From Segnochrobactrum spirostomi (GTDB lineage Bacteria > Pseudomonadota > Alphaproteobacteria > Rhizobiales > Segnochrobactraceae), in NCBI RefSeq assembly GCF_009600605.1, contig NZ_VWNA01000001.1:930001-994000 (forward strand): a stretch of DNA of 64,000 nucleotides, written 5' to 3'. A program made the position numbers and the translations under genes. Of the stretch, positions 7,958 to 58,226 are shown one piece after another. How positions within the stretch are numbered: the stretch's first letter is position 1; every line of letters starts with the position of its first letter. Below the pieces are notes generated by a model. It was not told the DNA's origin and did not search any database. It saw only the letters and a program-made list of their open reading frames with translations.

Positions 7958-9222
7958 TCGACCGGATAGTCAACACTGGGCCATGCCGCATAGCTCACCT
8001 GTGTTGTTCCGGTAGCCTCCTGGTACAGAACATTGCCACTAGGGTACGACTCCGGCTCAACCATATAGAGACCCCAATTCGCCTGTACCGTTACCTCGTC
8101 GTTGAACTCGTAGATACAGTAGCCGATCAAGTAGCTATTCTCATCGGCACTTAGATAGCTCGCAATCGTCTCCGCGATCTCTCCCGTAATCGTATTGTAT
8201 TGCGTCTCCTGACTTTGGTCATCCACCCCGCCTCTGGCGAGCCCCGTCTCAGTTAGCAGCAGGGGGACGCTAAACTGCTGGCCGGGCCAATTGGTGCTAT
8301 TAACACTAGTTGCCGACCAATCGTCGTACTGACCGATCGTCGTCGCAAGCCCGGATCCATACTGATATATATTTACGCTGTTATAATACCAGCTATCATT
8401 TGCCCCTCCGATAGTCGAGATACCAAACCACGACGCCTCGAAGGTCGGCCCGCTTCCTCCCACCGTACCGAAAGGAAGTAATGTGTCGCTATTTACCCCA
8501 TTCCAAAACGCCTGAAACCAGTAACTTAGGGGGGCGCTACCAGATTCCGGATTGCCTTGGTCACCATTAGAAATCGGGCTCGTTAACAGTACAGCACGGT
8601 AACTGCTCGCATTAATCTGAATTTGTAGATTTACGATCCACCAGATCACACGCGCCAAGCGAGACGCAGGATCCACTGCAGGACCACCCTGACCTGACAG
8701 GTCGTTAATATCTATCTCATTGCCGACCGAGAAGCTGTGGACCGCAGGGTGTATGTCGCCATTCTTGACAACACTTCCAATGAATTGCGTTAGTGCCGAT
8801 GTAATGGCAGATGGCGCACTATCAAAGCTATATTTCGAATCTGGATATGCGTTTCCCCATGCATATTCCGCGCTAGATAGGAAGTAATTCGAAATTGGAA
8901 CAATTACCTGAAGACCGTTTGCATAGGCGTAATCAAGGAAGTTTATGTGGGCGTTGCCGACCCCTGTCGCAGCATCCCAGCCTCTTGTTGGCCCCCAGTC
9001 ATAGAGCCGGATCAAATTGAAGCCGCAACTTCCAATCGTGCCGACATCGTCGCGGTATGAGTTACCCGCGTCATCCTGTCCAGAGTTCCAAAGCGCCTGA
9101 AAGCTGTCGTTTGCATAGTCGGAGTCGGAGAACTGGGCATCCGGCCCGGTGTTTGAGTACGGCCCGTTCCAGGTGGTCCAAGTCGGGCTGTATGCAATAC
9201 CCTTCAGGTAGGAACTAGTCAT
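7879..9222 (-). CDS. Glycoside hydrolase clan A-like protein (GH17-like)
   Basis: A 447-residue TIM-barrel-like protein. Likely catalytic residues are the Glu in VGNEID (about residue 169) and the Glu in LLLTETGLARGG (about residue 325), the pattern of retaining beta-glucanases such as GH17 and GH72. Other barrel segments include FNLIRLYDW and VNIYQYG. There is no signal peptide or lipobox, so export by a non-Sec route or an internal role must be considered. Codon use is visibly AT-richer than the surrounding genes, and it lies directly next to the integrase relic, both pointing to horizontal acquisition. Beta-1,3-glucan as substrate is only a guess. Confidence 0.65.
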   Translation of the reverse strand: MTSSYLKGIAYSPTWTTWNGPYSNTGPDAQFSDSDYANDSFQALWNSGQDDAGNSYRDDVGTIGSCGFNLIRLYDWGPTRGWDAATGVGNAHINFLDYAYANGLQVIVPISNYFLSSAEYAWGNAYPDSKYSFDSAPSAITSALTQFIGSVVKNGDIHPAVHSFSVGNEIDINDLSGQGGPAVDPASRLARVIWWIVNLQIQINASSYRAVLLTSPISNGDQGNPESGSAPLSYWFQAFWNGVNSDTLLPFGTVGGSGPTFEASWFGISTIGGANDSWYYNSVNIYQYGSGLATTIGQYDDWSATSVNSTNWPGQQFSVPLLLTETGLARGGVDDQSQETQYNTITGEIAETIASYLSADENSYLIGYCIYEFNDEVTVQANWGLYMVEPESYPSGNVLYQEATGTTQVSYAAWPSVDYPVDQLFPVSSQATGLTLMAALKAIFTSS

Positions 9223-9330
9223 CTAGGCCCCTCCAGTTAGGTTAGAAGCGATGTCGCCTCAACCGAGATCGCGAATGAGCAGATTACCAATATGGGACCG
9301 CGGTCGCGGCCGCCCCAAAGTTCAACGTGG

Positions 9331-9601
9331 TCAACAGTCGATCTTTTCGCGGATCTTGTTGACCTGCTCGAGGCCGTGACAGACGTTCTCGCACGGGACG
9401 CCGTCGCCATCACCGGCCGCGGGCCGGTGGCCCGAACACCAGAGCTTGACCGCTGCCTTGCATGTCGAGACGGTCTTGCAAGTTGCACCGGCAACCAGAG
9501 TGGCCTTGGGCGGCCTGACGGTGCGCCCAGACGGCCAGCTCATGTGCCGAAGCCGCGCTGGCGCCGATGATGAGAGCAAGAGAACGGCGTGTCATTCTCA
9601 T
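9331..9601 (-). pseudogene. Excalibur-like small secreted protein, frame disrupted
   Basis: Starting at 9601, one frame encodes a signal-peptide-like start, MRMTRRSLALIIGASAASA. A second frame, ending at 9331, encodes a typical excalibur calcium-binding-like domain with TCKTVSTCKAAVKLWCSG and DGDGVPCENVC. The two halves overlap but lie in different frames, so a single insertion or deletion has probably split one gene. An alternative is a shorter protein in the second frame from TTG at 9579, which would lack a signal peptide. Excalibur domains carry a DxDxDGxxCE-type Ca2+ loop in extracellular proteins. Confidence 0.5.
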
Positions 9602-9715
9602 CGGCGCCCCCGATTGGGTTCCCTTGAGGAGACCACAACGAGGGCGCGAACGCAACTCACGGCATCGAGGGGGCGATGCGGACGCGGCCGCCCCTCGTAC
9701 CCTTGATGACAGCGG

Positions 9716-9746
9716 GGCCGCCCAACTGGCTTAAGGTTGGGCGGCC
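9716..9746. terminator. Perfect 11-bp hairpin GGCCGCCCAAC / GTTGGGCGGCC
   Basis: The 9-nt loop contains the stop codon of the possible small ORF on the minus strand. No T-run follows on either strand, so it may be a repeat element rather than a terminator. Confidence 0.45.
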
Positions 9747-9898
9747 TCTAGTCGACCGCGCTTGACCGGGGAACGATGCTCGGCAGATGTTCCGTGAAAT
9801 GATCTAGCTCGGGTGGAGATACTCTTGAGAAAGAAGCGCATCGCAAATTTCTGGCTGCTCTCCTGATCAAGTCCACTGAGGTTAAAATTGCCAGACAT
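9731..9898 (-). CDS. Possible 55-residue small protein
   Basis: ATG at 9898 opens a 55-codon frame beginning MSGNFNLSGLDQE and ending in a basic stretch before TAA. A purine-rich GGAG lies about 15 bp upstream, which is far for a ribosome site. No family is recognised. It is bracketed by the two related hairpins. This is listed as a candidate only. Confidence 0.2.
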   Translation of the reverse strand: MSGNFNLSGLDQESSQKFAMRFFLKSISTRARSFHGTSAEHRSPVKRGRLEAAQP

Positions 9899-10002
9899 AT
9901 CTTTCAAAAAATCTCCGCGCGATTCAGGAACATCTACGTATCTCGATAAGCGTCAGAATGTCTGGCGGCGCTTGTCCTGTCGCGAAGCTGTTTATAAAGG
10001 GA

Positions 10003-12118: not shown

Positions 12119-12454
12119 TCAGCGGCCGTCGGCCCGCCACTGCGTGAACTCGAACTCGTCCTGAAGGCACCCGGCCAACACGACATAACAAAGCCCACCA
12201 CGATTGAGGGCCTTGTACATCTGGTTCAGGCACTTCTCCCTCTGGCTTTCGGAAAGCATGCGCCACAGGCTTCGCGACTCCTGCAACGCCGACCGCTCCA
12301 TCTGAACGCACTCGTCGTTAGCCCGGCGCGCTTGGTATCGAGAGCACATCGCAGGGATGTTGTAATATGGGATGGCGTTCAAGTGATCGGCGCGCGCAGA
12401 TCTCTCTGCAAATAGACTATAGATAAGCAGCAACGCCACGCACTTCAGCACCAT
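12119..12454 (-). CDS. Small secreted protein of unknown function
   Basis: A 111-residue protein with a Sec signal-like start (MVLKCVALLLIYSLF, then ARSARA-type cleavage context) and several Cys residues in the mature part, for example NRGGLCYVVLAGCLQDEF, suggesting disulfides. The start was chosen because TTGGAGGGGGA directly precedes this ATG; a TTG 72 bp upstream in frame is less likely. The pattern of spaced Cys and an xxYVxLxxCL-type segment recalls small periplasmic proteins common in Hyphomicrobiales. Function unknown. Confidence 0.6.
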   Translation of the reverse strand: MVLKCVALLLIYSLFAERSARADHLNAIPYYNIPAMCSRYQARRANDECVQMERSALQESRSLWRMLSESQREKCLNQMYKALNRGGLCYVVLAGCLQDEFEFTQWRADGR

Positions 12455-49919: not shown

Positions 49920-50969
49920 CTACGGCTTTGCCGGCGTGGTCGCGGGCGGGGCGCCCGTCTCGCTCGCCGGCGCGGAGCGGCGGACGCGGATTTCGATGCG
50001 GCGGCGATTTTCCATGTCGAGCACGCTGTCCCCGGCCGTGAGGCGGCCGTCCGGCTCGATCAATTGCGCCGCGGAGAACGGCAGGACATTGATCCCGGCG
50101 AGCCGCGGGTCGGCCGCGAGCACCTGGACGACGGCGACGGCGCGGGCGAGCCCGAGGCCGGCATTGTCGGCGGGGGCGAGGCGGCCGATCGCCTCCTGCC
50201 CCTTCACCACCTTCACGATGTCCTGGTCGAGGTTCGAGGCGCCGCGGGCGACCGGCAATTCGTCGGTGTGGCCGATCACCTCGACCACGTCGACATTGTA
50301 TTGCTTGATCATATCGACCAGACGCGGGACGACGAAGTCCTTGAGCTGCTTCTCGAAAGCCGGCGTGAGCTCGGCGCTGCCGCTGCGGAAATAATAGCCG
50401 TCCGCCTCGCTCAGGCTGATGATCGGCGGCCAATCGTGTTCGCCACGCCCGGGGGCAGCGGCGCTGGCGGCGGCACTCGCGGCGCGCTCGGCGTCGCGGC
50501 CGGCATCGATCACATGGCCGACCGTCTCCGCATCCTTCGGCGCGATCTGGCGGGCCGCCAGGGCGTCGAGAACCGGCTTCCAGGCCTGATATTTCTCCGC
50601 CTCGGCCCGCGCCTCGTCGACGGTGAGCCCGCTCTTGTGCAGCTCCTCGACAGCGGCGTAGCGCTCGACGAGCTTCTGCCAGAACGCGCCGATCGGTGGC
50701 GGATTGGCACCGCCGGCGCGGTGGCGCAGTTCCTCGGCGAGGAGCGGCTGGGTCTTGATCTCGGCGAGCACGGCCTCGTTGCCGGCGGCGATCCGGCGGG
50801 CGGTGACGAGTTCCGCTTCGACTTGGCGCAGCTTCTCCCGCTCGTGGGCGAACAGGCCCGCGACGCCCATCAAGAGGCAGAACACCAGAAGGAGCATGAT
50901 CTCGGCCATGGTGAGGCCGAGCACCATGCCCTCGCGGAACGAGCGGCCCTGGCGGGACACCGTCTCCAT
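49920..50969 (-). CDS. MotB-like OmpA-domain protein of the four-gene motor operon
   Basis: A 349-residue protein: a short cytoplasmic N-terminus, one transmembrane helix at about residues 17-40 whose start MAEIMLLLVFCLLM aligns with MotB/TolR/ZorB proton-channel helices, with Glu23 at the place of their key Asp; then a periplasmic helix-rich linker (45-170) and a C-terminal OmpA domain (185-330) with IGHTDELPV and NRRRIEIRV for peptidoglycan binding. An Ala/Pro tail follows. Start at 50969 would overlap the MotA-like gene's expected stop in TGATG. It is the fourth gene of the operon. Confidence 0.85.
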   Translation of the reverse strand: METVSRQGRSFREGMVLGLTMAEIMLLLVFCLLMGVAGLFAHEREKLRQVEAELVTARRIAAGNEAVLAEIKTQPLLAEELRHRAGGANPPPIGAFWQKLVERYAAVEELHKSGLTVDEARAEAEKYQAWKPVLDALAARQIAPKDAETVGHVIDAGRDAERAASAAASAAAPGRGEHDWPPIISLSEADGYYFRSGSAELTPAFEKQLKDFVVPRLVDMIKQYNVDVVEVIGHTDELPVARGASNLDQDIVKVVKGQEAIGRLAPADNAGLGLARAVAVVQVLAADPRLAGINVLPFSAAQLIEPDGRLTAGDSVLDMENRRRIEIRVRRSAPASETGAPPATTPAKP

Positions 50970-52230
50970 CAGCCGACCTGCTCGGCCGGGCCGGCTGCAC
51001 CCGGCCGGGCCGGGGGGACCCGGCATCGGCCGCGGCCTCGCCTTCGTGGGCACCCTCGGCCGGCAGCGTCTCAGGCTTCGTCTCTGGCTCCATCTCGGGC
51101 GCGGGCTCGGCGAAGAGCGGCAATTGCGGCTCGTCGGCACCGCGGGCCCCGTCCGCGGCGACGATCTCGGCGGCGGGCGCGCTGGCTCCGACGAGCGAGG
51201 CGAGATCGCGCGCGGCATAAGGCGACGACGCCGTCCGCGTGGAAGCCCCCTCGCCCGTCCCTGACGACGGCATCCGGCCCGCCCGCAGCTCGGCGGCGAT
51301 GATGCCGAGAGAGGTCACCGCCTCGCCGAGGCGCGCCGTCTCGGTGTTGCTACGCCGCGCCATCGCCTCGAGCGTCTCGATCAGGCGTTCGATCATCGGA
51401 TCGAAGCGCATGCCGATGACGTTGTCGGACTGGTTGAGGGACGTCGCACGCTTTGTCAGCGCATCGAAGCTGCGGGTGATGTCCTGGGTCGCGCGGGCGA
51501 GGTCGGCGCTCGCCTCGGAGACCCGCCCGGTGCCGACATTGAGCACCTCTGCGACCGCGGCGAGGAGCTCCTGAAGCATGGTCGCCGTACGCTCCGCCGC
51601 GGCGTCCAACGGCTCGGACGACTTCCGGCTCGTCACTTCGAGCGCCGCGATGAGGGCGTTGCCGGCCTCCTCGGTGCGCTTGGCGATCTCGAGGAAGCTG
51701 TCGCGCACCGCCTGTTCCTGGCTGCGGCGGAAATGGGCCATCTCGACCACGGTCGAATCGAGCTCGCGGCGGACCCGGCGCGCCGCATCGGCGAGTTCGA
51801 GGCGCGCCGTGCGCTCGATGTCGACGGGATCGCGCCGCATCTGCCCGAACAGCACGCGCAGCGCGACGCCGGTGATGGTCGAGCCGATCGCGACGCCGAA
51901 ATTGCGGACGATGGTGTCGGCGGAGCCTTCGGCGGTGAACTGGTAGAGCGACACCCCGAGGCTCGTCAGGGTGTAGAGGAAGCCGAGATAATAGAGGTTG
52001 TCGCCCGATTGGTCGGGTCTGAGCGACAGCCGCGGCACGAAGGCGAGCAGCCCCGCATAGAGGATCATCAGCACGATCGGCACGCCGGTCACGACCGGCG
52101 CCGGCGCAGCGAGCGTCTTCGCCGCGATGATGAAGGCGACGCCGGCGACGAGGAACAGGAGGAAGGCGGCGATGTCGCCGCCCCCGCCCCGGCCGAACCC
52201 GTCGGCCGCGTTGTGCTCGCGGTCCGCCAT
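50969..52230 (-). CDS. MotA/TolQ-like membrane protein with long helical tail, frameshifted near 3' end
   Basis: Four transmembrane helices (about 20-37, 48-66, 79-97, 106-127); the last two, LGFLYTLTSLGVSLYQF and VAIGSTITGVALRVLF, recall the channel helices of MotA/TolQ/ExbB/ZorA. A long cytosolic coiled-coil tail (about 135-320) and an acidic Pro-rich C-terminus follow. The start overlaps the previous gene by 1 nt (TGATG). As read, the frame passes the expected end and runs to 49534. One extra C in the run of six at 51012-51017 would end the protein at TGA 50969-50971, overlapping the next gene exactly as at the other junctions. I annotate the intact form. Confidence 0.75.
51012..51017. other. 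Run of six G (C on coding strand) at presumed frameshift
   Basis: On the coding (minus) strand GGTCCCCCCGG. Adding one base restores a 420-residue MotA-like protein that ends at the start of the MotB-like gene. Confidence 0.6.
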
Positions 52231-53051
52231 CAGCCTTCTCCCTGCAGACGTTCCGCCGCGTCGAGGCGGCCGCCGTTGTCATCGATCCAATCGGTCCAGA
52301 ACTTGATATGGGCCGCGTCGTCGAACTTCTTGCCCGACTTGCGCTGGACATAGAGGATCGTCACCTCCGCCCCGTCGAGGTCGGTGTGGAGCTTGCGGTA
52401 GACGGGCGACGCGCGGAAGCGCTCGTAGGTGAGGTCGCCCTTGTATTGGCTGTAGCCGGGCGCGTTCTCCAGCATGTCGGAGACGACGACGAGATGCTTC
52501 GGGATCGCCTCGTTGGCCGCACCGGCGAAGCGCTGGACGGCGATCTCCTGGATCGTCGCGATGATCGGCGAGGTCTCCGATTGATCCAGGGCGAGGCCGC
52601 CCGAGAGCGCCTTCTCGAGCGGCGCCGAGAAATCCGCCTCCCAGCGGTGCTTCAGGAGCTCCGGATTGGCGGTGAACTCGCTCGCACCCTTGCCGTCTCC
52701 CGGATTGCAGCGGGAGAACACGACCTTGCCGCCCGCCGAGCCGGGATCGAGCAGGCGCAGTTCGAGCAGATCGTAGGGCGGCAGCGCCTTCGCCATGTCC
52801 TCGATCTTGGTCGTGATCTCGGCGCGGGTGACGTCGGGCAAGGCGTCCGAGGCGTCGACGAGCACGACGGTCACGCCGCGCGGTCCTGTGAGCGGGCACA
52901 ACGTGGCGCGGTCGAGGGCCGGCGGCTTCGGGGTGAGGAAATAGAACGCGCCGAGCCCGCCGAGAGCGGCGAGCGCGACCACGATGAGGACGATGCCGAC
53001 GACGTGGCTGCCGCCGGACGACCGCCTACGACGCCGCGAGCGCCGGGCCAT
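52230..53051 (-). CDS. Membrane-anchored VWA-like protein of the four-gene motor operon
   Basis: A 273-residue protein: an Arg/Ser-rich cytoplasmic N-terminus, one transmembrane helix (about 17-38), and a periplasmic von Willebrand A-like domain (about 58-250) with VTVVLVDASDALPD at the first strand, where a MIDAS DxSxS is expected but only partly kept (DASDA at 66-70), and HLVVVSDMLENA further on. Two Cys (LCPLTG, SRCNPG) may form a disulfide. GGAGGGG before ATG 53051 fixes the start; it overlaps the upstream gene by 26 bp and the next by 1 nt. A ligand- or scaffold-binding part of an envelope complex is inferred. Confidence 0.8.
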   Translation of the reverse strand: MARRSRRRRRSSGGSHVVGIVLIVVALAALGGLGAFYFLTPKPPALDRATLCPLTGPRGVTVVLVDASDALPDVTRAEITTKIEDMAKALPPYDLLELRLLDPGSAGGKVVFSRCNPGDGKGASEFTANPELLKHRWEADFSAPLEKALSGGLALDQSETSPIIATIQEIAVQRFAGAANEAIPKHLVVVSDMLENAPGYSQYKGDLTYERFRASPVYRKLHTDLDGAEVTILYVQRKSGKKFDDAAHIKFWTDWIDDNGGRLDAAERLQGEG

Positions 53052-54492
53052 GCCGCCCCTCCGCCTTTGCGCCGTCACCTTCGATCATGTCGTCGATCTG
53101 CCGATAGGTGGCGACCGCCGCCTCGAACTCGCCGTGGATCGCCTCGACGTGACGGACGAGCAGGGCCTGGGATTCGGCGATCTGGGTCCGCAATTCCTCG
53201 CGCATCGTATCCTGGGGCACGTCGATCTCGATGCGCTCCAGCGAGACGGCGTGGGAGAAATGGGTCGGCGCCGGCGCCTGCCGGGCGCGCACATTCGCCT
53301 CGCGATAGGTCGAGAGCAACGCGTTCGCCGCCCGCTCGATCTGCCGCTCGTGGGCGGCGAACAGCTTCACCACCCGGACCCGGTTGGCGACGATCGCCTC
53401 ATATTCGGCCCGGCGCACCGAGAGGTCGCGGTCCGCCTCCTCAAGCGCCTCGGTCGCGTCGTCGCGGATTTCGCGCAGGCGGCCGATCAGGTCGGCCTTA
53501 GCGTCGATATAGACGTCGTGGGCGGCGGCGAGCCGCTTCTCGATGCCGCCATAGCCCGGATAGGGATCGTAGATGAAGAAGGCGTCGCCGAATGCGATCG
53601 CCGAAAAGAGCAGGCCGATCGCGAAGAACATCCACGATTTCATCTCGGCGAGGCCGAGCGGATCGGCGAGGATACGCCGCACCACCTCGACCCCGGCATC
53701 GCTCGCGAAGGTGCCGGAGATCTCGCGATAATGGGAGAGCGCGAGATTGAGGCCGATCGCGAAGGCGACATAGAACACGAGGCTCGCGAGCCCGATCAGC
53801 TTCATGAACCAGTTGCGGTGGAGCAGGCAGCGCACGCCGGCGGCGGCGATCGCAAAGCTGACGCCGACATTGAGCATGGCGAAGGTGAGCGCCTCCACGG
53901 CGCCGCCGACGAGCCCGAGCTCGCTGCCCTTCGACAGGAAGACGCCGTTCACCACCACCTCGAACACGAAGAGGACGAGGAGGATGCCGACCTTGAGGGT
54001 GAGCCCGCCGCCGGTGGCGGGCCGCGCCGTGCGGCGGATCTTGTGGCGGGTGCGGAAATCGGCCCGCTCGTCCTCGAGATCCTTGAGCTGACGCCGCAGC
54101 CGGTGCAGTTCGTCGCGACCCTGCGCCGCCTCGGCGCGGAACTCGCTCACCGCCTCCGGCGCGGCCTGGCGGATCAGCGCGAAGCGGCCCTCGAAATCGA
54201 GCACGGCGAGACGCTCTGTATAGGCGCGCATCTCCTCGGCGAGCACGCCGTGGGCCGCCTTGTGCTCCGACTGCACCTTCTCGACGATGCGGTTCTCGAC
54301 CTCGTCGAACTGGGTCTGGAGCATCGCCGGCTCGTCACGTGCGCCGCGTTCGGCGCCGCGTTCGGAGAGCCTCAGCTCCACGGCGATGCGCTCGACCTCG
54401 AGATCGGGAAACACCTGGAGCGAGGGTCGATAATCGTGAGGGGCTTTGCGCAGGCCGGCGAGCAGCCGCGGCAGAACGGACGTGTTGGCCAT
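53026..54492 (-). CDS. Coiled-coil multi-pass membrane protein, first gene of the motor operon
   Basis: A 488-residue protein with an N-terminal cytosolic helical region (about 20-145), four transmembrane helices (about 160-275), and a C-terminal coiled coil (about 320-470). No known domain. AAGGAGACGC precedes ATG 54492. It overlaps the VWA-like gene by 26 bp, so translation is coupled. The symmetric coiled-coil/TM/coiled-coil plan suggests a scaffold. Upstream is a 434-bp divergent region shared with the GH64-like gene. Confidence 0.8.
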   Translation of the reverse strand: MANTSVLPRLLAGLRKAPHDYRPSLQVFPDLEVERIAVELRLSERGAERGARDEPAMLQTQFDEVENRIVEKVQSEHKAAHGVLAEEMRAYTERLAVLDFEGRFALIRQAAPEAVSEFRAEAAQGRDELHRLRRQLKDLEDERADFRTRHKIRRTARPATGGGLTLKVGILLVLFVFEVVVNGVFLSKGSELGLVGGAVEALTFAMLNVGVSFAIAAAGVRCLLHRNWFMKLIGLASLVFYVAFAIGLNLALSHYREISGTFASDAGVEVVRRILADPLGLAEMKSWMFFAIGLLFSAIAFGDAFFIYDPYPGYGGIEKRLAAAHDVYIDAKADLIGRLREIRDDATEALEEADRDLSVRRAEYEAIVANRVRVVKLFAAHERQIERAANALLSTYREANVRARQAPAPTHFSHAVSLERIEIDVPQDTMREELRTQIAESQALLVRHVEAIHGEFEAAVATYRQIDDMIEGDGAKAEGRHGPALAAS

Positions 54493-54926: not shown

Positions 54927-57900
54927 GTGACGAATCTGAATATCACCCTGAGTTCCGACCTTCGGAACCAGTTGACGACGGCGAGCGCCGCCGCAGGCCA
55001 CGTCAATTTCCAGGTCGTCATCTTCGACAACAGCGGCACGACGCCGATCTACCAGCAGACCTACACCGACAGCGCCATCCCATCGAGCACGATCAACATC
55101 GCGCTGCCTGCTGACGTCGATAGTGGCAAAGCCTATTTCATCATCCAAAGCCAGGGCACCACAACCCCGGCTCTGAGTATCACGCAGCAGAGCGACATCA
55201 ACTGGACCGACGCGCAGGATAAGAACTATCGCTACGACAGCATCGAGTTCAACCTCAGCGGCAGTCCGAACGACAAGGCCAACCTGACCTCGGTCGCCGG
55301 ATTCGGCACCGGGATGATTCTCCAGGTTCCGAACGGCTCGACGACGGAATCCGCGAGCTTCCAATATTCCGCCTCGACGCTGCAAAACTCCTACCTGCAC
55401 ACGATCGGCGCGAACAATCAGGACACGTTGTCGTCCTTCTCGGACGGGCCGCTGAAGAACTCCGTGCGGGAGGCGATCTCCCCGACGACGTCGGTCGGCC
55501 AGGCCTCCGGCCAGCCCGGCTCCGGCATCTACAGCAACACCCAATGGGCGAGCTATATCGACAGCCTCAAGAACGCGGCCGCCGCGGACAAAGTCCATAT
55601 CGCCGGGTATTTCAACGGCGCGAAAGATGCGAACGCCGTCTATCACAATGGCTCGTTCTACTCCTACCATCTCGAGTGGGATGCCGCGCAGAACGTGTTC
55701 TGGCTGAGCCCAACCGAGCAGAGCCAGGTCCAGGGCTACATCAAGATCGACCCGACCGAGCTGCAAAACAGCATCTATTCGACGCTCGGCGACGTCGAGA
55801 TCTACAAGAGCAAATCGGATACGACACCCTATCAGATCCTCGACAACGGCGGGTCCGCCATGAATGTCGGGGACAACAACCAGTGGGGCACCGCCCTTCG
55901 CGACTTCCTGACCGGCTTCACCGCCGGCTTCTATGGCGTCACCGGGCAATCGGCGAACGCGGAGGTCACGACGCCGATCGACCTCAACAACAATTGGAAC
56001 TGGGACCCGACCTACGGCTTCGGCCAGCATCTCACCAACGGTCAACAGCCGATCTTCACGGACCCGTATTCCGCCGTCTTCGCTGCCCATTCCAATTCTT
56101 ACGGCTCCGCCTACTCCGATGCGCTGGCCAGCCAATATGCCAAGGGCGGTCCGCTATTGTCGCTTTACGACAGCGGCACCCACGCCAACGTGTCCGACAT
56201 AAATCTGACGCTGCTCGGTGACGGCGAAACACCGGACAGCAATACGGCCAATTCTTACGTCGCGCCGACGATGTACAATTATATCGCCCCGACCGGCGGC
56301 CATTATCAGACGATGCCGGCGACCGAAGGCGATCCGGGCACATTCCGCTCGCTCACGCTCACGCTCCAGAACGCGAGCATGCGGCTGAACGACGATGTGC
56401 CCGTCACGCTGCAAATCTATGGTGGCGAAGACTCGTCCGGGCATCCGATCTGGCATTCGGCCTCCATGACCGGGTCCGACACGCCGTGGGCGACGTGGAA
56501 CTTCAACCTCGACGCCAACAACAACTATATTTTGAACGCCGACGGCACCTACAGCGTCACCGCGCTGCCCGGAACGTCGGTGCCCGGCAGCATGACGTTC
56601 GCCCATCTGCCGACGGCGGCAAGCGGCGTCTCGTGGTACCGCGTCGTGGTCGGCGACGGCGACGCCCAGAAGATCTACAATCTCTACACGACTACGAGCG
56701 GCTATCAGTTCGTCGCCGCCGATGGCTCCCAGGCGATCGATGGTCTCGCCGCAATCACGATGCCCGGCCACTCGGGCACGGTCGAGACCTTCACCGTCAA
56801 CATGTTCAACGGCACGTCGACGTCGCTCGATCCGTCCCTGCTGCACCAATATACCGACTCCAACTACACGACGGCGAGCGTTCCGAACGCCGCCGTCGCC
56901 GGCACGCTGTCGGGAACGACGGACCACGTCACCTTCACGGCCTTCTCCGGCCAGACGAACCAGGTGAGCAATTCGATCACGCTGCACCAGGGCGAGTCGG
57001 CCCTCGGCTGGACCGGCACCAACAACGACAGCAGCACCGCGTCGTGGATCTCCGGCATCACCAACAAGGTGAACGGCCTCAACGTCGCGCTGCTCTCGAT
57101 CGTCGACACCACCCACCATCTGTCCATCGCCCCGGTCGCCGCTCAGGCGGATCTCGACGGCCAGTGGCAGACGCAGGTGATGCAGCAGCTCGGCAACGGC
57201 ACCTACACCGTCAACATGACGGAATATTCCTTCAAGGACAGCGCGCTCACGACCGCGCTGACCTCGCCGAGTTCGACGCTGACGCTGAATGTAGACTTGG
57301 CGCACCTCGGCCTCGAGGGCAACGCGACGGGCCTCAACCTCATCTCGGACGCCTCCGGCACCACGGGCAACTGGATCGATCTCGACACGACCGCCTCCAA
57401 CCTGCCGCCCGAGGCGACGCTGATCCTCTACCGGACCAACAATGCAGGCCAGATGATCGACGCCAACGGCCAGATCGTCACCGATGTGAAGGACGCGGCC
57501 CTCGCTTATGTCGGGGCGGTGCAGACGGACCACGGCACGGCGACGCTGTTCGACGGCCACCAGCAGGTCTATCTCGGCACGGGGCAGAACCTGCACTTCG
57601 CCCTCCAGACCGGCCAGAACACCATCAACACCAACGTGCCGGTGACCACATCGGCCCAGGGCGACGGGTCGGTCGCCATCAATGTCGGCGGCATCCAACT
57701 CAAGGCGGCCGTCAACAACACGCTCGACGACGCCGCCAACATGGCGACCGTCCAGCGCATGTACGACTTCCCCATGGTCTACGCCCACCACGGCGAACAA
57801 TTGGACATCAACGTCGCGGGCAGCACCGACGACGTCAATTCGCTGCACTTCGTCCGCCTCGATGCGAACTTCAATAAGGACCAGATCACGGTCGGCGGGG

Positions 57901-58226
57901 TCGCCTACGGCAACACCGACGCCTTCCGCGCGGCCGTCGTCGCCCACCTCGACAGCGGCTATTCGGACACCCAAGGGGCGAGCCAGAACTTCCACGACAG
58001 CAAGACGTGGACGGTCGCGGGGGCAGACGGCTTCTACATCCCGGTGATGATTTCGCAGCATGGCGACGTGTTCGTGCCGGGCACAGCGAACGTGGACGGC
58101 GCCGAGCACGTGCGGACCTTCGGCGCCAACACGTTCGGCTTCGAGGATCTCACGGCGGCGCAGCACTCCGACTTCGACTACAACGATATGGTGATGCAGA
58201 TCCATCACCACGACGGCGTCTCCTGA
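54927..58226 (+). CDS. Large GH64-like / DUF4114 protein
   Basis: A 1099-residue protein. The N-terminal part (about 1-430) resembles GH64 beta-1,3-glucanases and thaumatin-like folds: YDSIEFNLSGSPNDKANLTS and AGFGTGMILQVP, and later an AGYFNGAKD segment. The middle is Ser/Thr/Asn-rich beta-sandwich sequence. The C-terminus (about 980-1095) is DUF4114, with TFGFEDLTAAQHSDFDYNDM, a probable calcium-binding end domain. No Sec signal, so non-classical or type I-like export is possible. Base composition is lower in GC than housekeeping neighbours. Activity and substrate are unproven. Confidence 0.7.
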   Translation: MTNLNITLSSDLRNQLTTASAAAGHVNFQVVIFDNSGTTPIYQQTYTDSAIPSSTINIALPADVDSGKAYFIIQSQGTTTPALSITQQSDINWTDAQDKNYRYDSIEFNLSGSPNDKANLTSVAGFGTGMILQVPNGSTTESASFQYSASTLQNSYLHTIGANNQDTLSSFSDGPLKNSVREAISPTTSVGQASGQPGSGIYSNTQWASYIDSLKNAAAADKVHIAGYFNGAKDANAVYHNGSFYSYHLEWDAAQNVFWLSPTEQSQVQGYIKIDPTELQNSIYSTLGDVEIYKSKSDTTPYQILDNGGSAMNVGDNNQWGTALRDFLTGFTAGFYGVTGQSANAEVTTPIDLNNNWNWDPTYGFGQHLTNGQQPIFTDPYSAVFAAHSNSYGSAYSDALASQYAKGGPLLSLYDSGTHANVSDINLTLLGDGETPDSNTANSYVAPTMYNYIAPTGGHYQTMPATEGDPGTFRSLTLTLQNASMRLNDDVPVTLQIYGGEDSSGHPIWHSASMTGSDTPWATWNFNLDANNNYILNADGTYSVTALPGTSVPGSMTFAHLPTAASGVSWYRVVVGDGDAQKIYNLYTTTSGYQFVAADGSQAIDGLAAITMPGHSGTVETFTVNMFNGTSTSLDPSLLHQYTDSNYTTASVPNAAVAGTLSGTTDHVTFTAFSGQTNQVSNSITLHQGESALGWTGTNNDSSTASWISGITNKVNGLNVALLSIVDTTHHLSIAPVAAQADLDGQWQTQVMQQLGNGTYTVNMTEYSFKDSALTTALTSPSSTLTLNVDLAHLGLEGNATGLNLISDASGTTGNWIDLDTTASNLPPEATLILYRTNNAGQMIDANGQIVTDVKDAALAYVGAVQTDHGTATLFDGHQQVYLGTGQNLHFALQTGQNTINTNVPVTTSAQGDGSVAINVGGIQLKAAVNNTLDDAANMATVQRMYDFPMVYAHHGEQLDINVAGSTDDVNSLHFVRLDANFNKDQITVGGVAYGNTDAFRAAVVAHLDSGYSDTQGASQNFHDSKTWTVAGADGFYIPVMISQHGDVFVPGTANVDGAEHVRTFGANTFGFEDLTAAQHSDFDYNDMVMQIHHHDGVS

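Follow-up and report, generated by a model that had tools for sequence, protein, structure and literature searches.

What might four closely packed genes, g1-g2-g3-g4, do on the minus strand of a 64,000-nucleotide stretch of the Segnochrobactrum spirostomi genome (this whole stretch is called the window below)? A preliminary description, made from the letters of the DNA, saw in them an envelope motor resembling ZorAB of the Zorya defence system, accompanied by a VWA protein and a coiled-coil scaffold. Our analysis confirms that the genes are real and indicates that they are a conserved unit, which likely forms a motor and a complex. Coupling of a nuclease to this motor in related cassettes is strongly supported. 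We lean towards the reading that the whole is a Zorya-like motor with a periplasmic effector nuclease, which would attack incoming DNA. The features under discussion (lengths in amino acids, aa; TM, transmembrane) are as follows.

53026..54492, minus strand: g1, 488 aa; coiled coil and four TM helices
52230..53051, minus strand: g2, 273 aa; membrane-anchored periplasmic VWA protein
50970..52230, minus strand: g3; MotA/TolQ/ZorA-like subunit with a coiled-coil tail
49920..50969, minus strand: g4, 349 aa; MotB/ZorB-like subunit with an OmpA/Pal-type domain
51012..51017, minus strand: C6 run; likely site of a one-base indel, probably a missing base, by which the g3 stop is lost

Nucleases beside and on the g4 subunit

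The partner that the preliminary description missed is a periplasmic nuclease, absent from the window and present in relatives. Relatives were gathered from the same order, from named genomes (148 confirmed stretches, 80 kept) and from plasmids, and the neighbours of 57 dereplicated cassettes were compared, a gene being counted as linked when it lies within 0.5 kb or is fused. The single recurrent neighbour gene encodes a secreted thermonuclease (SNase, PF00565). It is linked in 25 of the 57 cassettes, at various positions, on either side and on either strand, and the cassettes that have it are scattered widely across the tree; one of them is L025, which in that tree is closest to the window copy. 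In L151, L157, L159 and L162, g4 and the SNase form one fusion protein, with the SNase at the C-terminal end, and in L161 a GmrSD_C (HNH-type) nuclease domain is fused at the same end in place of SNase; Pfam confirms the OmpA and the nuclease domains in the g4 fusions. An SNase or HNH-type nuclease is thus adjacent or fused in 26 of the 57 relatives. The catalytic residues of SNase are retained in most copies. Signal peptides can be read by eye, with no predictor, in the sequences of the free SNases, and, since the C-terminus of g4 is itself periplasmic, the nuclease should be periplasmic too. At L055, from R. laguerreae, a remnant of an SNase C-terminus follows g4 (about 12120-12246, minus strand), which suggests decay of the nuclease gene.

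A survey of 72,556 plasmid records gave 29 with this type of SNase, 24 with g3 and 14 with both, where 0.01 would be expected (nominal p about 1e-43, the records being related); in these 14 the SNase is always adjacent to the cassette. The role first given as "defence, cell wall or signalling" can be narrowed towards DNA-targeting defence by the nucleases adjacent or fused to g4 in relatives, and a role in defence at DNA entry is plausible, with the balance of our judgement tilting in its favour.

The same periplasmic nuclease could also serve large plasmids as a means of entry exclusion, cutting transferred or free DNA and raising a barrier to conjugation or transformation, with phages not the main target. 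Conjugative plasmids host 11 of the 24 plasmid copies of the cassette, and both the signal peptides and the fusions at the periplasmic end of g4 place the nuclease where such a barrier would need it. SNases, moreover, cut single-stranded and double-stranded DNA with no sequence specificity. Many copies of the cassette are, however, chromosomal, the known defence-type genes in its neighbourhood mostly act on phages, and the channels of conjugative type IV secretion systems shield DNA in the periplasm; we regard entry exclusion as quite unlikely to be the main function.

Those neighbouring genes were examined with PADLOC. Flanks of the cassettes match 103 of its families at E<=1e-10, versus 23 for random genes of the host genomes, and the matches include GajA (4.7e-265), RmrA, AbiEi, AbiEii, PDC-S06, PDC-S46 and others; a hand-added flanking gene, PD-Lambda-1, was left out of the count. 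At single loci, Mrr_cat stands directly after g4 (L057), HSDR_N upstream of the cassette (L024), and a SNIPE-like DUF4041 protein beside it (L130). The window cassette is flanked by ordinary neighbours. Two further kinds of neighbour were seen. The gene immediately upstream of the GmrSD_C-fusion cassette (L161, 9789-12041, minus strand) encodes 751 aa, and its match to the Top6A/Spo11 Toprim domain falls slightly short of the cut-off. DUF4236-like proteins recur beside the cassette in Mesorhizobium, where they overlap g4 or lie a few bases downstream of it, and in two other genera; the loci are L042, L047, L049, L050, L052, L062 and L064, with the gene after g4, and L057 and L099, with the gene upstream.

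Several observations weigh against a nuclease-bearing defence motor. The enrichment of defence genes is modest when only very strong matches are counted, with about 7-9 of 128 distinct flank proteins versus 2 of 130 control proteins (p about 0.03 for 9 vs 2), which makes it suggestive only, and location in the accessory genome may account for part of it. No recognised nuclease is linked or fused in 31 of the 57 cassettes, the window's own among them, and neither of the host genome's two SNases is of the cassette type. In the Rhizobium tropici/rhizogenes group the four genes occupy a stable place in the chromosome and have no such nuclease linked to them. Plasmids often carry thermonucleases of one kind or another, so it is the fusions and the SNase-subfamily test, not adjacency alone, that carry weight; the RcgA/RcgR paper (PMC13055273) mentions a thermonuclease beside traG, among the conjugation genes of a rhizobial plasmid, and does not mention this cassette. 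To these points are added the low significance of the structural match of g3 and the outcome of its profile comparison, both given below. The window copy, a four-gene core without a linked nuclease, may rely on a nuclease encoded in trans, may have lost it, or may act differently.

The four proteins and their distribution

The order and orientation of g1-g2-g3-g4 are identical in all 84 related loci that carry g3. This is more than chance and makes the set one conserved unit, as the preliminary description had proposed. The full cassette was found in five of 150 genomes of the order and in three of 296 genomes of a sampled family from another order, and a survey of the phylum (398 genomes) gave 10 matches, every one in the same class. 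The cassette has been seen only in Alphaproteobacteria, where its distribution is patchy and often plasmid-borne, with plasmid copies in Rhizobium, Sinorhizobium, Microvirga, Tistrella and Paracoccus. Their usual annotations are "hypothetical protein" and "OmpA family protein", and a few carry misleading names (chemotaxis protein, DMT transporter); plasmid pRL11 of R. johnstonii 3841 carries the cassette as RL_RS31080 to RL_RS31095. Long conserved synteny round the cassette was not found beyond close relatives. A phage-borne origin was rejected, with no match among 50,697 phage records. One complete four-gene cassette lies on a 23-kb IMG/VR contig listed as viral (L197, IMGVR_UViG_2671180139_000005), which could be the host flank of a provirus. 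At L094, from the rhizobial isolate AFS040727, g2 is split over two frames (9022-9995), likely by a frameshift.

None of the four proteins passes the cut-off of a Pfam or NCBIfam family. A literature search that excluded bioRxiv and subscription papers gave no publication naming the gene set (a search by locus tags returned unrelated genes only).

The g3 protein was modelled with AlphaFold from 38 homologues. Its membrane part consists of four helices (17-39, 44-64, 72-97 and 104-132; pLDDT, the predicted local distance difference test score, 82-96) with a very short loop between TM2 and TM3. T87, S90 and T118, in TM3 and TM4, are invariant in 38 of 38 homologues and would fit the polar ring expected in ion-driven motors of this kind. 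The coiled-coil tail is variable, and the whole protein ranges from 258 to 629 aa in relatives. When the model was compared by Foldseek with 350,542 PDB chains, the best match was type II ZorAB (8vvi; probability 0.98, TM-score on target 0.60, with a weak E-value of 0.14), and MotA (6ysf) and TolQ (9kpz) ranked below it; a fold unlike MotA or ZorA, which would have undone the preliminary description, was not what the search returned. There is no match of g3 to PF01618 (MotA_ExbB) in Pfam, and its membrane part gave no significant score against MotA/TolQ and ZorA profiles, a weak negative, since the profiles came from small reference alignments with some rows misframed. The case for homology is therefore built on the fold, the topology and the partner gene. 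Weak PADLOC matches to ZorA are confined to the coiled coil of g3 (E 2.4e-4). A sequence search of PDB with g3 gave coiled-coil matches only, with ZorA among many unrelated proteins, and was discarded as evidence; a QLPLF clamp-binding motif in the tail was dropped as not conserved in the alignment.

Numbers of TM helices in the other subunits were obtained from hydropathy averaged over the 38 homologues, which gives four for g1 and one each for g2 and g4. In g4 the TM helix is followed by a helical linker and an OmpA/Pal-type peptidoglycan-binding domain. The acidic residue of the helix, Glu23, is invariant in 38 of 38 homologues, as are T20 and, in the OmpA domain, the GHTD motif, N246, D248 and R276. 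The nearest PDB relative of this domain is PomB (E 2.5e-5); its Pfam OmpA match falls just under the cut-off (E 4.3e-5), and weak PADLOC matches to ZorB lie in the same part. One TM carboxylate and a peptidoglycan-binding OmpA domain are the features of a Zorya B subunit, and g4 has both, in agreement with the MotB-like protein first described. Taken together, the evidence supports, though weakly for the g3 fold, a MotA/MotB-type pair in g3 and g4, probably closest in fold to ZorAB.

Could such a pair have a housekeeping task? A Tol-Pal-like motor of envelope maintenance or signalling would remodel or sense the cell wall, the nuclease being an accessory in some lineages. Many lineages do have the core four genes with no nuclease linked to them, some in stable chromosomal settings, g4 keeps its peptidoglycan-binding residues, a penicillin-binding protein gene is upstream of the cassette on pRL11, and the matches of g2 include VWA proteins of the BatB type, which are likewise periplasmic and anchored in the membrane. 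Set against this are the patchy, plasmid-borne distribution and the three ordinary MotA/ExbB/TolQ genes (PF01618) that the host genome already has elsewhere, the cassette locus not among them; repeated nuclease fusions, and the swap of one nuclease for another at the same position of g4, would be left unexplained. We consider an envelope-maintenance motor unlikely.

The two other subunits agree with their first description as well. The g2 protein has an Arg-rich cytosolic N-terminus, one TM helix and a periplasmic domain, and its AlphaFold model (pLDDT 88.6) has 92 Foldseek matches in PDB at E<=1e-3, the best at 2.8e-6, to VWA/I-domains, BatB and TFIIH p44-type proteins. Residues like those of the metal ion-dependent adhesion site (MIDAS) are conserved (D66-x-S/T68-D69, S161 and D192), with the second MIDAS serine replaced, and cysteines C52 and C115 are invariant. 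The Rossmann-like VWA fold with its MIDAS, by which VWA proteins are recognised, is clear in the predicted structure. In g1 a cytosolic coiled coil precedes four TM helices (about 159-302; candidates 159-177, 202-220, 232-250 and 284-302) and a second coiled coil follows them; N182, N208, N249, H254, R256, D309 and G313 are invariant in the 38 homologues. The protein has no Pfam family and no PDB relative, and we view it as a putative scaffold or linker. Pairs of g1 and g2 without g3 and g4 occur at L019 (9049-11435), L020 (8841-11215) and L021 (8387-10767), and also at L166 and L167, in two families; a profile search found no g3 in the five genomes with g1-g2 only, and the pair may function separately, as a module in its own right.

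As to the packing of the genes in the window, four overlapping genes had been claimed, and the genes are indeed tightly packed: the reading frames of g1 and g2 overlap (an alternative g2 start is GTG at 53078), and g2 and g3 join at TGATG. In the deposited sequence the g3 frame does not reach a stop ahead of g4; it runs on to 49534 and would encode 898 aa, spanning all of g4. Near 51050 the coding signal departs from the frame of g3, and that of g4 begins near 50970, where a TGA overlapping the g4 ATG (TGATG, as at g2/g3) sits one base out of the g3 frame, and g3 of relatives terminates exactly at g4. The likeliest site of a one-base indel behind the lost stop is the C6 run at 51012-51017, and we infer an assembly error or a real mutation.

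A large gene next to the cassette is divergent from it (54927-58226, plus strand). It encodes 1099 aa with a C-terminal DUF4114-like match, and its G+C is 0.62 vs 0.68 for the window. The type I secretion system of SPI-4 is driven by an attached pair that resembles MotAB, namely SiiAB, and the cassette might likewise be an accessory motor for secretion of this large DUF4114 protein. DUF4114 and type I secretion genes appear, however, at single loci only, and this explanation, very improbable in our estimate, was rejected for want of recurrent secretion neighbours beside the cassettes.

A proposed mode of action

On the reading that we prefer, a motor that directs a nuclease at incoming DNA, the g3 ring and g4 shaft would make an ion-driven envelope motor of the 5:2 type, with g4 gripping peptidoglycan through its OmpA domain, and g2 (as a clamp or sensor in the periplasm) and g1 (as the four-TM coiled-coil scaffold) would join the motor complex. 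In its complete form, the system would have a secreted SNase encoded alongside, or an SNase or HNH-type domain carried at the tip of the shaft by g4 itself. When DNA enters, by phage injection or possibly conjugation, the disturbed wall would make g4 engage peptidoglycan; ion flow through the g3-g4 interface would then turn or release the shaft, thereby activating the nuclease that sits on it or close by, and the DNA would be cut in the periplasm. Both the wall-disturbance trigger and the ion flow are proposed by analogy with ZorAB (PMC11890865). In its fullest version, which we put forward tentatively, the cassette could encode an alphaproteobacterial immune machine that has not been described before: a rotor driven by ions would carry or command a periplasmic nuclease without specificity, the nuclease heads (SNase, GmrSD_C) being interchangeable and the VWA protein serving as clamp or sensor.

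If this is true, the ZorAB principle would extend to the other side of the membrane, where foreign DNA could be destroyed without risk to the chromosome. The ion-driven 5:2 motors would gain one more branch, distinguished by its VWA and scaffold subunits, and the "hypothetical proteins" of many rhizobia, including those on pRL11, would have a testable function.

Relation to known systems

With MotAB/PomAB, TolQR and ExbBD the cassette shares the two-subunit plan, and the OmpA domain of g4 is nearest that of PomB. It differs from them in that g3 lacks PF01618, in the added VWA and scaffold subunits, and in having no flagellar, Tol or Ton partners; the absence of Zor effectors and of tol, exb or fla genes next to the cassette, noted in the preliminary description, was confirmed.

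Zorya, too, has features in common with the cassette. A subunit that is probably MotA-like, with a long coiled-coil tail, stands beside a MotB-like subunit whose TM helix has a carboxylate and which has an OmpA domain; the motor is, or in the cassette would be, partnered by a nuclease as effector, and the distribution is patchy. Zorya, whose anti-phage activity needs motor and nuclease alike, consists of ZorAB together with ZorCD, ZorE or ZorFG (PMC11890865). None of ZorC/ZorD, ZorE or ZorF/ZorG adjoins the window copy or recurs beside its relatives, and the PADLOC model of ZorA (PDLC00600) finds nothing in this genome, though it detects true ZorA elsewhere in the order. On these two grounds, and for its two extra core proteins (VWA and four-TM coiled coil), the cassette is not a member of Zorya. 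It differs also in having Glu as the TM carboxylate, in its small g3, which has hardly any cytosolic domain between TM2 and TM3, and in a nuclease of the SNase or GmrSD_C type that should be periplasmic, whereas Zorya's is cytosolic.

Secreted thermonucleases have the same fold and catalytic residues as the linked or fused enzyme, which in the cassette is tied to a motor shaft by fusion or adjacency. The nearest precedent for the proposed action is SNIPE (DUF4041 and GIY-YIG, PD-Lambda-1), a homologue of which is found beside the cassette at L130. SNIPE is tethered at the inner membrane and cuts phage DNA during injection (PMC13190303), but it is one protein only, works without a motor and has its nuclease on the cytoplasmic side.

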